Shown here in pieces: positions 2,993 to 45,527 of a stretch of DNA of 59,065 nucleotides. The DNA is taken from assembly GCA_944326115.1 (NCBI GenBank), contig CALVCQ010000010.1, forward strand, positions 1 to 59,065, given 5' to 3'. A model generated the notes under the pieces. The model was not told the origin of the DNA and made no database searches. It saw nothing but the letters and a program-made list of their open reading frames with translations. This DNA comes from Candidatus Gastranaerophilales bacterium (GTDB taxonomy: Bacteria > Cyanobacteriota > Vampirovibrionia > Gastranaerophilales > Gastranaerophilaceae). Each line of letters opens with the position of its first letter. The first letter of the stretch is position 1. A program made the position numbers and the translations under genes.

Positions 2993-3392
2993 AAGTGATA
3001 TAGGTTATAAATTTAAGCTCTTTTTTATTTCTACGGTAGAGGCTTTCTCATTTAAAAAGCCTGAATATTTATTTTTGTTAGTGTTTTTTAAGTTTATTAT
3101 TTTTTTTTTACTTTTTTAAGATTAAATTATTCTTTAATATATAAGAAATGATACAAGTGCATATTGCTTAAATTTGATTTTGATAATAAAGGGTTTATTG
3201 ATGAAAGTATGAGGTATCAAAAATATTGCGAAATTCATTGTTTGAAATAAAGATAGCCGATACATTCATATAAAAGCTGAGTTAAGTAAGCATATATCAA
3301 GGCATTTAATCGTTAATAGAATAAATACACTAGAAATATGTTATGCGAACTTAGGCATTTTTTAAACACTTGCAAAAACTAAATTTCGAAGA
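2993..3392. other. AT-rich intergenic region, no gene seen
   Basis: About 400 bases upstream of the terminase operon. A plus-strand reading frame at the left edge encodes a low-complexity F/I/L-rich peptide and looks like an AT-rich shadow. The region probably holds the operon promoter but no convincing -35/-10 pair could be picked out of the A/T background. Confidence 0.4.
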
Positions 3393-3552
3393 GGACTCTT
3401 TTTATTAGCCAAAAGAGAATTTTGCTTTAATTAAAGAAAAATTCTCCAAAAACAGCAAAAAGCTATTCTCTACTTTTCCTCAAAACGCACAAACCGCGGG
3501 AATTTAGGTATAAAAAAAGAGACTCTAATCGGTCTCTTCCTTTAAAATTGGA
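3393..3552. repeat. 160-bp direct repeat, outer copy (tRNA-Ala terminator region)
   Basis: This matches 5012-5171 over 160 bases with only five substitutions that I could find. It contains a copy of the tRNA-Ala terminator (AAGAGAC...GTCTCTT), an upstream hairpin CTCTTTT/AAAAGAG and an A/T-rich foldback. The bases just beyond it (3553-3580) still resemble the T-arm of the tRNA-Ala 3' end (ACGAGA.TCGAA), but the rest of the tRNA is absent. Together with the inner copy it brackets a zeta-type kinase module. This is the pattern expected of an attachment-site duplication or of a decayed tandem tRNA duplication. Confidence 0.85.
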
Positions 3553-3701
3553 TAAAACGAGAGTCGAAATAATGTCCAAAAACTTCCCCATTTTATCATT
3601 CTGTGTGTTTACAGTATGTCTCTATATTTTAGTTACATCAAGAGCTCTTAAGGTATTCTTATCATTCTAACACACTTGATTTAATGTACTACAAAACTAT
3701 T

Positions 3702-4434: not shown

Positions 4435-5011
4435 ATGATTAGATTAGCACAAATATAAAATTATAAGCATATAAGAAATAAATATTTAAGAATATGTAAG
4501 TTCTTCATTAGTGTACATAAGTTTGTAATGTCTTTTTTTCGGGAAACAAAAAGTCAAACCAATACCCAATTGGGTTAAAATATAAAGCAGACTTGTTTAA
4601 AAAAAATCTTTTATTTAGAGAAAGAGAATTTAATGCAAATATAAGTAATTTTCACTAGAATTTAATCAACTATAATTTTCTAATTAAAAAAGAAGCATCT
4701 TAACCATTTATTTATTATGTATATTATTACTACAATTATATTGAAAATCAAAGGAATATCAATTACAGAAAGGAATTTGTATAGTATTGCCTGAATATAC
4801 AATCCCGTTCAATACACATATTTATATTTTGTGCTTACAATAATTATAACAACATATTTAGGTGTTTTTTTGAAATTTCTCCACTCTAAAATTTTATTAA
4901 TAAAAAATATGATTAGATAAATAAAATATTATTTAAATTTTAATTTATTAAATTAAAAAAATTAATAAAGAGCTATTATATTTATCTTTTGGTACTTTAC
5001 TATTTTAAAAT
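4435..5011. other. Very AT-rich stretch, no gene seen
   Basis: About 577 bases between the zeta-type kinase and the inner repeat. It is exceptionally A/T rich, with only short reading frames and no tRNA-like or strongly paired segment. The kinase promoter must be near its right end of the coding side. The composition is consistent with decayed mobile DNA. Confidence 0.4.
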
Positions 5012-5171
5012 GGACTCTTTTTATTAGCCAAAAGAGAATTTTGCTTTAATTAAAGAAAAATTCTCCAAAAACAGCAAAAAGCTATTCTCTGCTTTTCCTC
5101 AATACGCGCAAACAGCGGGAATTTAGGCATAAAAAAAGAGACTCTAATCGGTCTCTTCCTTTAAAATTGGA
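5012..5171. repeat. 160-bp direct repeat, inner copy adjoining tRNA-Ala
   Basis: The second copy of the 3393-3552 repeat, five differences in 160 bases. Its right end includes the last four bases of the intact tRNA-Ala gene, and similarity continues weakly about 25 bases into the T-arm. It carries the working tRNA terminator. The arrangement, intact tRNA plus repeat here and tRNA-tail remnant plus repeat 1.6 kb away, is typical of DNA inserted at a tRNA 3' end. Confidence 0.85.
5136..5157 (-). terminator. Terminator of tRNA-Ala
   Basis: Read on the minus strand, AAGAGAC...GTCTCTT forms a 7-bp stem followed by seven T residues, about 11 bases after the tRNA 3' end. It is a standard intrinsic terminator. 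The same hairpin is duplicated inside the outer repeat. Confidence 0.8.
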
Positions 5172-5240
5172 GCGTACGAGACTCGAACTCGTGACCCCCA
5201 CACTGCCAGTGTGATGCGCTACCAGCTGCGCTAACGCCCC
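5168..5240 (-). tRNA. tRNA-Ala(GGC)
   Basis: A 73-base cloverleaf on the minus strand. The acceptor stem GGGGCGT/ACGCTCC contains the G3:U70 pair that identifies alanine tRNAs. The D arm is GCGC/GCGC, the anticodon loop CTGGCAG gives anticodon GGC, and the T arm is ACGAG/CTCGT with TTCGAGT. CCA is not encoded. A near-copy of its downstream terminator region is repeated 1.6 kb away, making this the likely integration target of the neighbouring element. Confidence 0.93.
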
Positions 5241-9725: not shown

Positions 9726-9892
9726 TGTCTGCTGAGGCAGAGTTGCTTGTATAATTTTTGATGCAAGTAACGTTAAGGTCTGTATTATGCTCAAGTGACC
9801 CTGCGTACTTGATGCGGGTGCCGGACTTCTCTATAAAAACAGACTTGTTTATCTCACAGGTTCATAAAGTAGTAGAATTCAGTTGATTATAT
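9726..9892 (+). repeat. Structured interspersed repeat, diverged copy 3
   Basis: About 167 bases that align along their length with the two identical copies at 33618-33794 and 45351-45527. Shared blocks are TGTCTG at the left, GCTTGTA, AAGTGACC, GTGCCGGACTT, CACAGGTTCA, AAGTAGT and TCAGTTGA at the right. Many differences are transitions. Two helices persist: 9742-9749 with 9764-9771, and 9808-9814 with 9863-9869. A TTGATG-17-TATAAA pair (9809-9837) points towards the next gene, which starts 20 bases after the repeat. Confidence 0.75.
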
Positions 9893-9912
9893 AAAAAAGA
9901 AAGGTATTTAAG

Positions 9913-33617: not shown

Positions 33618-33794
33618 TTTTCATATTGTCAACTGACTCCGACTACTTGTTGAACCTGTGCAATAAGCAAGTTCAATATTTAACAATAAGTCCGGCACAG
33701 TCAACAAGCGCATGGGGTCACTTCCGTAAAATGCTAGACTCGGCGCCACTCGCACTCCGTGTACCACTCCTACAAGCGAGGTCCCACTCAGACA
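33618..33794 (-). repeat. Structured interspersed repeat, copy 1
   Basis: The reverse complement of 33618-33794 is identical, base for base as far as I can read, to 45351-45527 (177 bases). The sequence starts TGTCTGAGTGGGACCTCGC and ends with AGTTGACAATATG. Within it are a GC-rich left half with helices CTCGC/GCGAG, and a right half with a long stem (CTTGTTGA plus TGTGC paired with GCACA plus TCAACAAG). It lies between the pcrA terminator and the SMR gene. A short apparent coding frame in it is repeated with the element and is not a gene. Confidence 0.92.
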
Positions 33795-33802
33795 ATTTAT
33801 AC

Positions 33803-33840
33803 AAAAGCCCGGGAGATAGTATATTTTCTCCCAGGCTTTT
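33803..33840 (-). terminator. Terminator downstream of pcrA
   Basis: AAAAGCC-C-GGGAGA pairs with TCTCCC-A-GGCTTTT (13 bp with one mismatch) and gives a T-run on the minus strand. It ends 8 bases before the structured repeat begins. Confidence 0.8.
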
Positions 33841-33971
33841 ATCCTTCCGTGTCCACAAATTTGTGCGTTTTCTCTCGGTCCGGACCAAAAATAATTTTTG
33901 CGGAACCCTAGAAAACTCAGTTTATTAAATTTTTGAAAATCTTATCACAAATTTTGGGTTTAGTAAAACAG

Positions 33972-37257: not shown

Positions 37258-37494
37258 GTGTTGTTAATATTTGGAATGGTGCTTATTTTTTAATGACAAT
37301 TAATGCTGCATCATAAAAATGAGCTTTAATTTTGTTTCCGATTTACAATTATTTACATTTGGTCAAATCGTTTTCATACTGCTGTATATCAGACTTTATT
37401 TTGGGCTTTTAAGAGAAATTTGATTAAAGTTTTTTCTTTGCTATCCGAACATATACTCATAAACACAGATATTAAGGATAGTAAAGGAGCGGAT

Positions 37495-39591
37495 ATGATG
37501 TTAATCAAGGGAAAGTCTAAAAAAAGAATAATTACTATTGCTTTGCTGGGAGTATTTCTCGCAAGCCCTATGTCCGGTATGTGTTATGCTGCAGAAATTC
37601 TGCCTGACAGCAGCAGACAAGAATCCGTAATTGCAGAGCAGGTACAAGAAGATATACAAAAAACTATTCCGGCAGTCCCGGAGGTCACAGCTGCAGGGAT
37701 TTCTGCAGCGGATAAATTAGATAAATCAGATATAAATAATATCAATAATTCTGACCTTCTTTATAATATCGACAATCAAAACACGGTTACGGTGCCAAAA
37801 GAAGAGCGTATTTCTTTAATGCCGGAGGATTATGCAATTTTGGCGCAAGAGGCACAACCGGAAATGAACGATGAAGAAATTTTAGTTGCACAACATCAAA
37901 CGCTCAATCTGCGACCACCCGTACAGCTGTCAAAAGCCCAAAATGAAACAGGAGAAATGAAGGTAAACAGCAATAATGAATCAGTAATAAACGCTAATAT
38001 GAGTATCTATCAGAAGGAAGAAGCTCTTAAAAATCTTATGGAAAAGTACGGATATGATTATTATACTATCAAATATGCTCTGGAATACATAGACTGGGAA
38101 AAAAGGAAAAGCACGGACTTTGCTCCTTCATTCTATACATTCTTAAAAAACGGACATCTTAAATCTCTTGACAATAACTACAAATTTTTATACCAATATG
38201 CATTTGACGAACAAGTAATGAAAAATATGTTAGATCTCACTGAGGAGATGAAAAAGCACGGATATGGTGAATATTGTATCGAATATGCTCTGGAATACAT
38301 AGACTGGGAAAAAAGAAAAAGCACGGACTTTGCTCCTTCATTCTATACATTCTTAAAAAAAGGACATCTTAAATATCTTAAGTATGCACATTCGTATAAC
38401 GACAAAATTTTATACCAATATGCATTTGACGAACAGGCAATGAAAAATATGTTAGATCTCACTGAGAAGATGAAAAAGTACGGATATGCTAGTTATTGTT
38501 TCGAATATGCTCTGCAATACATAGACTGGGAAAAAAGAAAAAGCACGGACTTTGCTCCTTCATTCTATACATTCTTAAAAAAAGGACATCTTAAATATCT
38601 TAAGTATGCACATTCGTATAACGACAAAATTTTATACCAATATGCATTTGACGAACAGGCAATGAAAAATATGTTAGATCTCACTGAGAAGATGAAAAAG
38701 TACGGATATGCTAGTTATTGTTTCGAATATGCTCTGCAATACATAGACTGGGAAAAAAGAAAAAGCACGGACTTTGCTCCTTCATTCTATACATTCTTAA
38801 AAAAAGGATATCTTGAATATCTTAACCGTAGCAACATATTTTTAGTCCAATATGCATTTGACGAACAGGCAATGAAAAATATCTCAGATCTCACTGATGA
38901 GATGATAAAGCACGGATATGGTGAATATTGTATCGAATATGCTCTGGAATACATAGACTGGGAAAAAAGAAAAAGCACGGACTTTGCTCCTTCATTCTAT
39001 ACATTCTTAAAAAAAGGACATCTTAAATATCTTAAGTATGCACATTCGTATAACGACAAAATTTTATACCAATATGCATTTGACGAACAGGCAATGAAAA
39101 ATATGTTAGATCTCACTGAGGAGATGAAAAAATACGGATATGATGAAGATAGTATAAAAATGGCTCTGGCACACATAGACTGGAAAAAATCAGAAAACGA
39201 TTTTGAAAATATTATTAATATATTAAAATTGAATTACATTTTTCTAAGTGTATTAGAACATATGGATTATAACAAATCTGCTGCAACTTATGAAATATTA
39301 AAAGTTATGAAAAATAACCGTATTGGTACTAATTGTATAAGCGAGCATTCAAAAGAGATTTATGCTGCCTATGATAAAATATATAATAATGAAAAAATTA
39401 CAAATAAAGAAAAAAAATTGGCAAAAGAGCTAAAAAAGATAGAAAACTCCTACAAAAGACAGCAAACAATAAGTAATACCAAAGATGTGATAGGTTTTTG
39501 TGGATTCATACTTGTTGCTGTTGTTACCCTGCCTATATGGGCACCGATCGTGCTGATCGCACTATTAACATGGGATGGTAGTTGGCATTAA
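37495..39591 (+). CDS. Secreted tandem-repeat protein (DWEKRKSTDFAPSFYTFLK repeats)
   Basis: About 698 residues from the ATG at 37495, which has AAAGGAG 5 bases upstream; a longer frame opens at 37420. A signal peptide follows (KRIITIALLGVFLASPMSGMCYAAE), then about 150 variable, acidic residues. Residues about 180-560 comprise five nearly identical units and one worn unit, each 70 or 74 residues, containing YIDWEKRKSTDFAPSFYTFLK and YAFDEQAMKNMLDLTEEMKKYGY. They look all-helical. The C-terminus has a hydrophobic helix (GFILVAVVTLPIWAPIVLIALL), so the chain is probably anchored. No known domain. Recent DNA duplication is evident. It may be a surface or adhesion protein. Confidence 0.75.
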   Translation: MMLIKGKSKKRIITIALLGVFLASPMSGMCYAAEILPDSSRQESVIAEQVQEDIQKTIPAVPEVTAAGISAADKLDKSDINNINNSDLLYNIDNQNTVTVPKEERISLMPEDYAILAQEAQPEMNDEEILVAQHQTLNLRPPVQLSKAQNETGEMKVNSNNESVINANMSIYQKEEALKNLMEKYGYDYYTIKYALEYIDWEKRKSTDFAPSFYTFLKNGHLKSLDNNYKFLYQYAFDEQVMKNMLDLTEEMKKHGYGEYCIEYALEYIDWEKRKSTDFAPSFYTFLKKGHLKYLKYAHSYNDKILYQYAFDEQAMKNMLDLTEKMKKYGYASYCFEYALQYIDWEKRKSTDFAPSFYTFLKKGHLKYLKYAHSYNDKILYQYAFDEQAMKNMLDLTEKMKKYGYASYCFEYALQYIDWEKRKSTDFAPSFYTFLKKGYLEYLNRSNIFLVQYAFDEQAMKNISDLTDEMIKHGYGEYCIEYALEYIDWEKRKSTDFAPSFYTFLKKGHLKYLKYAHSYNDKILYQYAFDEQAMKNMLDLTEEMKKYGYDEDSIKMALAHIDWKKSENDFENIINILKLNYIFLSVLEHMDYNKSAATYEILKVMKNNRIGTNCISEHSKEIYAAYDKIYNNEKITNKEKKLAKELKKIENSYKRQQTISNTKDVIGFCGFILVAVVTLPIWAPIVLIALLTWDGSWH
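38048..39160 (+). repeat. Tandem DNA repeats of 210/222 bp inside the secreted protein gene
   Basis: Corresponding bases of successive units fall at 38088, 38298, 38520, 38742 and 38952, giving spacings of 210, 222, 222 and 210. The 12-base difference is the presence or absence of a four-residue stretch in the KYAHSYND segment. The units starting at about 38460 and 38682 are almost identical at DNA level over 150 bases or more. Confidence 0.9.
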
Positions 39592-44466: not shown

Positions 44467-45348
44467 ATGAACGGAATATCAGGTTTTTACGGATATTACC
44501 CGAGCCAGTTTCAAGTCACAGCGAATCCAACTGGTGCAGCACTTACACAGTTGAATTGTGATATGGCAAGAGATTTTGGATTAAATACGGCACCGGTTTA
44601 TAACTTGCCTCTTGATGTGACAATGGGCTTTGGCGGCGGATACGGCGGGGCTTTTGGCATGTACGGAATGGGGATGTATAATCCCGCTATGATGATGTCT
44701 CCGAGATATCTGGAATACATCAATATGGATTATAAAGACAGACTGGCTTATGATTCGGATCTTAGAGATACAGCCAGAGAATATAAATATCAGGAAGATT
44801 TGTCGGCTAAAAACTATGCATTTGCATCGGATCAATTGACAGGAGCTATCAGAACAGCCTGCAATGCCTTGCAAACAGTTGTAGTTGAAGGCGAATCCGA
44901 TCAGATTGTATATCAGTTTGAAAGAATTGTTAACGCATTGAGACGTTCACCTTTAGCCGAGAAATTTAAAGAACAGTTCAATGGTGATCCAACCAGTGCA
45001 GAAATGGCGTTGAGAAATGCTGCATTTGAACAATTCCAGGCAGCAACGGGTCAGGATTTGAAGGCAATGATCCAGCAGCATTGCGACGGCACTCTGGCAA
45101 ATTCTTTCTGGAATACAATTACGTTTGGCAATGCTCAAACCTTCTCTGCCGAAGAAATTATTGCAAAACTCGAAGGCTCCCACGCTCCGAAATCAGAAGG
45201 AAGCAAGAAAATATTCGGAAAAGTTGGCGGTACTACAGCAACTACTCTTGCCGGAGCCGGTATCGGTACACTTATTTGTCCCGGATTTGGTACGGCTATC
45301 GGTGCAGGTGTCGGTTTAATTGCAGGTGTTGTCGGATCATTTATGTAA
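44467..45348 (+). CDS. Gly/Met-rich protein with C-terminal glycine zipper
   Basis: A 293-residue protein of unknown family. Residues about 50-80 are rich in Gly, Met and Tyr (GFGGGYGGAFGMYGMGMY). The middle (90-215) appears helical and soluble (DSDLRDTAREYKYQEDLS, IVYQFERIVNALRRSP). The last 45 residues contain a glycine-zipper hydrophobic hairpin (GTLICPGFGTAIGAGVGLIAGVVGSF), which may insert into membranes. No signal peptide. GGAGG lies 6 bases upstream of the ATG. The 177-bp repeat (copy 2) begins two bases after its stop codon. Confidence 0.65.
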   Translation: MNGISGFYGYYPSQFQVTANPTGAALTQLNCDMARDFGLNTAPVYNLPLDVTMGFGGGYGGAFGMYGMGMYNPAMMMSPRYLEYINMDYKDRLAYDSDLRDTAREYKYQEDLSAKNYAFASDQLTGAIRTACNALQTVVVEGESDQIVYQFERIVNALRRSPLAEKFKEQFNGDPTSAEMALRNAAFEQFQAATGQDLKAMIQQHCDGTLANSFWNTITFGNAQTFSAEEIIAKLEGSHAPKSEGSKKIFGKVGGTTATTLAGAGIGTLICPGFGTAIGAGVGLIAGVVGSFM

Positions 45349-45350
45349 TA

Positions 45351-45527
45351 TGTCTGAGTGGGACCTCGCTTGTAGGAGTGGTACACGGAGTGCGAGTGGC
45401 GCCGAGTCTAGCATTTTACGGAAGTGACCCCATGCGCTTGTTGACTGTGCCGGACTTATTGTTAAATATTGAACTTGCTTATTGCACAGGTTCAACAAGT
45501 AGTCGGAGTCAGTTGACAATATGAAAA
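45351..45527 (+). repeat. Structured interspersed repeat, copy 2
   Basis: Identical, in opposite orientation, to 33618-33794. Helix A: 45366-45372 with 45393-45399. Helix B: 45437-45444 with 45492-45499, extended by 45446-45450 with 45484-45488. A promoter-like TTGACT-16-TAAATA pair lies at 45441-45468. The repeat lies after a gene's stop codon and before a terminator, so it does not serve as the leader of the next gene here. Confidence 0.92.

Follow-up and report, generated by a model that had tools for sequence, protein, structure and literature searches.

A 177-bp repeat present three times in a 59,065-nucleotide stretch of a Candidatus Gastranaerophilales genome (contig CALVCQ010000010.1; the whole stretch is referred to below as the window) belongs to a family of short structured elements that has spread through this genome. 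The repeat contains no open reading frame (ORF), and it has sharp ends, a high copy number, empty sites in relatives, no target site duplication, a conserved structure and a tolerance of extra hairpins. Its structure and its movement are seen directly in the comparisons described here, and the enzyme that would mobilize it is proposed from them. The reading that we favor, with a probability of roughly 0.5, is a mobile element of the bcr1/REP/PATE kind that is non-autonomous and depends on an HUH-type enzyme, acting in trans, to move it as a folded single DNA strand. Gastranaerophilales are non-photosynthetic gut relatives of cyanobacteria. The three copies in the window are listed below.

33618-33794, minus strand: copy 1, 177 bp, 100% identical to copy 2, 219.1 bits with the covariance model; its neighbors are a guanidine-I riboswitch region and, on the other side, the beginning of a small multidrug resistance gene.
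45351-45527, plus strand: copy 2, 177 bp, starting 2 bp past the stop codon of ORF 44467-45348.
9726-9897, plus strand: copy 3 (9726-9892 as first delimited), a diverged older copy, following the gene for DNA gyrase/topoisomerase IV subunit A.

Direct comparison bore out a preliminary description of this DNA, according to which copies 1 and 2 are the same over 177 bases with unrelated flanks and copy 3 is strongly diverged yet alignable throughout. Copy 3, which is itself a row of the model's own alignment (A1), matched the covariance model with 113.7 bits (E 6e-28). The same description spoke of three places, which holds for the window and understates the genome, where ∼150 right ends were found. 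Specifically, searches of the own genome (designated G000; 2.15 Mb in 92 contigs, assembly 96% complete; G001 and similar designations are relatives) gave 97 matches to a 19-base core and 153 matches to the 25-base right end, with 0 matches for the reversed control; these right ends would sum to ∼1% of the genome sequence. Full copies with flanks were collected at 85 sites, of which 56 were letter-for-letter identical at 177 bp, 14 were 213 bp and 5 were 266 bp in length, and a few were older and diverged. Contig ends in G000 often fall inside a copy of the element.

To locate empty sites, the joined flanks of ten copies were compared with seven congeners. The site of copy 1 was found to be continuous and free of the element in G003, G021 and G007, as was that of copy 2 in G014, G001 and G007, such that both identical window copies have empty counterparts. 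Given these empty orthologous sites and the unique flanks of each copy, an assembly artifact is excluded as the origin of the identical copies. The repeat was also found in other genomes: the families of congeners are 82-96% identical to that of G000 and homogeneous within each genome, several congeners have no copies, and the covariance model detected the element in 3 of the 41 genera of the bacterial family. Recent movement, as originally proposed, is supported by the several dozen sites that hold the very same sequence, the empty congener sites and the homogeneous species-specific families, and the element appears to have been amplified recently from one master sequence.

A search of a GTDB-based collection with the right-end pattern matched almost exclusively metagenome-assembled genomes (MAGs) of Candidatus Gastranaerophilales, and the exceptions, labeled "Clostridia" and "uncultured bacterium," correspond to congeners G004 and G014. 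The MAG labeled as uncultured Clostridia (CAMEWS; loci L252, L275 and L276) carries the element and matches G004; its label is probably wrong. A 590-bp segment that includes a 349-bp form of the element is 98.5% identical between two genera (L124:1395-1983 and L187:1367-1956), which suggests recent transfer or contamination. The element had no match in phage and plasmid collections; one viral-contig match proved to be a chance 19-mer inside a phage gene.

The ends of the element were defined as follows.

45351-45358, plus strand: left end, TGTCTGAG, with a sharp boundary and a favored 5' flank WAAAT.
45519-45527, plus strand: right terminus, ATATGAAAA, with a sharp boundary; GAAAT in most other species.

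All 56 identical copies run from TGTCTGAG to ATATGAAAA in unrelated intergenic sites. More generally, every collected copy begins with TGTCTGA and ends with ATATGAAA followed by a single further base (A or T in almost all cases); flanking sequences diverge from the first outside base onward. Insertion sites lie in AT-rich, mostly intergenic DNA. The left-flank profile (84 sites) has A at -4 in 87% and T at -1 in 68% of cases, or roughly WAAAT, the right flank is T-rich, and copies from other species gave the same picture. The left-flank consensus resembles the 3' end of the element itself (GAAAA/GAAAT), and variation in the last base of the element is partly coupled to that in the -1 base of the flank. 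Target site duplications, which the preliminary description had named as something to look for, were absent at lengths of 2-9 and offsets of 0-5 when compared with shuffled flank pairings. Lack of duplication combined with insertion beside a target motif is a trait of the IS200/IS605 type and was observed here, the motif being a preference and not fixed. As to terminal inverted repeats, of which the preliminary description saw no clear ones, only an imperfect, gapped inverted match can be read directly between the ends (TGTC..TGA..GAC versus TGTCAACTGACTCCGAC, the outer 9 bp unmatched). Another element lies head to tail within 0-5 bp of 3 of ∼167 copies, and at least two copies have tail-to-tail neighbors.

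The folded structure comprises the following parts.

45366-45399, plus strand: left hairpin (helix A, 45366-45372 with 45393-45399), included in the pair counts.
45413-45417, plus strand: ATTTT, just 5' of the right hairpin and conserved in alignment A1.
45425-45511, plus strand: long right hairpin (45425-45431/45505-45511, 45434-45443/45493-45503 and 45445-45450/45484-45489).
45508-45517, plus strand: GTCAGTTGAC, a palindrome close to the right end from which hardly any copy departs.

Pairing within the proposed helices reached 95.2% in 27 diverse copies; shuffles gave 91.6%, and slid controls no more than 42%. Among 58 matches that included genera g49 and g42, 16 of 30 pairs had changes on both sides that keep pairing; such double-change cells numbered 73 against 23.6 in shuffles, and 0 of 500 shuffles scored as high, although this alignment was fitted to the structure and so leans toward it. 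The clearest case is helix 45445-45450/45484-45489, which reads CUGUGC/GCACAG, GGGUGC/GCACCC or GAGUGC/GCACUC, and UUGUGC/GCACAA in g49, with covariation of the C-G/G-C/U-A and U-A/G-C/A-U kinds. Selection on the structure, which had been argued from three copies, is supported by this covariation. Folding energy alone was unremarkable (z -1.66), and a terminal helix joining both ends of the element was rejected as not conserved.

The two helices proposed originally were both recovered. Almost every copy can form helix A in the register first given, with the C-G to T-A change confirmed in copy 3; a shifted register, CTCGC/GCGAG, can also be drawn. Helix B (45437-45444/45492-45499) is real and forms part of the strongly covarying hairpin at 45425-45511. 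The T-A to A-T change at 45441/45495 is present in copy 3 as described, but in that copy alone of 27 rows, the pair being T-T in four other copies; covariation is stronger at 45445/45489, 45446/45488 and 45435/45502. Given that G-U pairs exceed A-C pairs by 77 to 24 on the plus strand (two special pairs left out), the plus strand is suggested to be the folding strand. The ATTTT at 45413-45417 is, read directly, complementary to the 3' end GAAAT/AAAAT, and is a possible, putative guide.

Longer forms of the element, which reach 349 bp in relatives, contain extra hairpins. One hairpin repeat inside such forms, CTCTGCCGA-stem-GAGAG, has a conserved base and very different self-complementary stems, and mostly occurs outside recognized copies (L104:2174, L104:15506, L211:19578 and other G000 loci). 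As these hairpins also stand apart from the element, with many different but self-complementary stems, it seems that the element took up foreign hairpin repeats without losing its ability to spread. Another dispersed repeat, TACCCGTGGGTATCCTGATGCGGACGG..., lies beside a copy (L063 ∼1584-1850 and related loci) and resembles a module of the longer elements; it recurs many times in G007, G014 and other genomes, at identities as high as 97%.

Orientation of the element along the chromosome was found to be non-random. Neighboring copies on one contig agree in orientation in 35 of 48 cases in G000 (p 0.002) and in 55 of 80 in four relatives. Raw GC skew gave nothing clear, with gene direction dominating; a gene-strand-corrected third-position skew was chosen after this failure and then applied unchanged to G001 and G012. 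Orientation agreed with the corrected skew at 57 of 84 copies in G000 and 23 of 35 in G012, and the combined sign-flip p was 0.02 for GC and 0.002 for AT. Insertion biased to one replication strand is thereby suggested, without proof.

These properties can be accommodated by the following scheme. An enzyme acting in trans would recognize the folded single-stranded plus strand, cut at the AAAT-like site of the left flank and at the GAAA(A/T) right end, and insert the strand into exposed single-stranded DNA, for example the lagging-strand template, as HUH/Y1 transposases do in IS200/IS605 and REP systems. The absence of duplication, the motif shared by flank and 3' end, the sub-terminal hairpins on one strand and the orientation bias together fit HUH single-strand transposition. 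The assembly has no recognizable intact gene for such an enzyme, which may have been lost, may lie on a missing piece or plasmid, or may belong to an unrecognized family.

No known copying enzyme was found in G000 among reverse transcriptases, TnpB, IS110 and intact Y1 proteins, recombinases and DDE families not having been searched. RVT_1 had 0 matches in G000, G001, G012 and G021, all of which have many copies, and a reverse transcriptase was present only in G006, G014 and G015. TnpB (PF07282) was confined to G008 and the IS110 transposase (PF02371) to G015 of 20 genomes. Genes of the Y1/RAYT kind occur in eight congeners, with none in G000. RAYTs were considered as the mobilizer and set aside: they have their own GTAG-type palindromes, and many high-copy genomes are without one, such that congener RAYTs are probably not what moves the element. 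Palindromes of the form GTAGGTTGGG...CCCAAC lie just before the start codon of the RAYT genes at L138, L139, L140, L141 and L144. In G012, a RAYT gene stands between two element copies, 57 and 6 bp away. Decayed RAYT remnants were noted in G000, G010, G015 and G107, and one of those in G000, with which contig 15 begins, is immediately next to an element copy, on its right-end side. Within the examined loci, no gene among 698 proteins recurred beside copies, and none held a parent element that combined these ends with a Y1 or TnpB gene.

Several observations weigh against movement by an HUH-type enzyme. Y1_Tnp (PF01797) had no match in G000 or in further high-copy genomes, among them G007, G014, G021, G008, G010 and G003, a genus-specific Y1/RAYT profile recovered only remnants in G000, and the palindromes flanking intact congener RAYTs are unlike the 177-bp element. 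Target choice is only preferential and less strict than in IS608 or ISDra2, whose tetranucleotide targets are fixed. The link between orientation and composition is absent in G001 (23 of 54), and the guide role envisaged for ATTTT is putative. Genomes that hold dozens of near-identical copies without reverse transcriptase, TnpB, IS110 or a recognizable intact Y1 would also fit a new class of mobility, in which the mover would come from an enzyme family with no known action on repeats of this sort and the element would pick up and spread independent hairpin repeats as modules; we entertain this only tentatively.

The main rival, an idea put forward for bcr1 repeats, is a tyrosine or serine site-specific recombinase that would work through a double-stranded circle and cross over at the AAA(T) common to left flank and right end. 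It would account for the lack of duplication, for the resemblance between the short AT-rich motifs of flank and end and for the partly linked variation of the last base and the -1 base, but double-stranded recombination does not need an elaborate conserved fold and does not predict orientation clustering, and we consider it unlikely. Conservation of structure could instead reflect a host-useful RNA, be it a cis-regulator, an mRNA stabilizer or a small RNA, kept at many sites, and some copies do follow a stop codon directly or sit within a 5' leader. However, copies show no preferred direction relative to neighboring genes (22 in divergent, 19 and 18 in co-linear and 13 in convergent contexts), which speaks against a cis-acting function in mRNA, and the patchy distribution (few genera, absence from some congeners) and the empty sites make this explanation improbable.

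A SINE-like retroelement, whose RNA would be copied by reverse transcriptase and then inserted, is suggested by the plus-strand structure with many G-U pairs, the A-rich 3' end and the identical copies; with RVT_1 missing from the four high-copy genomes named above, it is more doubtful still. We give least credence to a classical DDE-transposase miniature inverted-repeat element with decayed or very imperfect terminal inverted repeats: the imperfect inverted similarity of the ends would agree with it, but duplication is absent at any length and the putative right repeat leaves nine constant bases beyond it. The GGGGWSAS motif, which belongs to tyrosine transposases of the type with terminal inverted repeats (PMC3733652), can be read as GGGGTCAG in some species but is GGAGTCAG in G000, and was not used as evidence.

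Three further features of the window were noted. A guanidine-I riboswitch (Rfam RF00442, 83.1 bits) at 33826-33922 on the minus strand lies upstream of the small multidrug resistance gene. The insertion of copy 1 separates the terminator-like stem of the riboswitch from the ribosome-binding site of that gene, and could affect the control of the gene. Tandem units of ∼222 bp occupy 38038-39128 inside ORF 37420-39591. Segments 3383-3577 and 5002-5196 form a 195-bp direct repeat with 91% identity, one copy of which overlaps a tRNA gene.

The element had no Rfam match at the gathering score, and a permissive search gave only chance-level hits with E values of 3.6 and above, in agreement with the initial statement that it matches no familiar RNA family. 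As the literature searched is also without a description of it, the element constitutes, as far as these searches show, an undescribed repeat family in Gastranaerophilales. Repeats orphaned of a transposase, ERIC and bcr1 among them, have long been puzzling. What moves such repeats becomes testable in this family, which offers both empty and filled sites across many species, a covariation-supported structure and identical young copies.

Among known systems, REP and REPIN-BIME sequences moved by RAYT (TnpA_REP) are likewise non-autonomous, hairpin-bearing, intergenic and of high copy number (PMC3116915, PMC3733652, PMC6006769). By contrast, the present element is several times longer than the 20-40 bp of REP and is without a GTAG/GGAG tag, the RAYTs of the genus have other palindromes, and G000 lacks an intact RAYT. 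PATEs and other non-autonomous IS200/IS605 derivatives share the lack of duplication, the sub-terminal hairpins and a target resembling the element end, the HUH mechanism with its subterminal hairpins and lagging-strand targeting having been reviewed (PMC6006769); here, however, the ends were not found on any parent insertion sequence or Y1 gene, and the target is only preferred. ERIC/IRU, YPAL and other small mobile sequences (PMC2229807) are non-autonomous structured repeats of 100-200 bp, several without a known transposase, as here, and some with known empty sites, but they mostly have terminal inverted repeats and duplications, neither of which is clear in this element. The closest kind is represented by bcr1 and further group A repeats of the Bacillus cereus group, which are short, non-coding and present in tens to 130 copies with no known transposase; bcr1 is restricted to its lineage, and its TTTAT motif has been linked to mobility by a suspected mechanism resembling site-specific recombination (PMC6542083). 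By description, the present element shares the structured, high-copy and lineage-restricted character of bcr1 and its want of a known transposase, and differs from it in belonging to another lineage, in a structure supported by covariation and in its nested hairpin modules.
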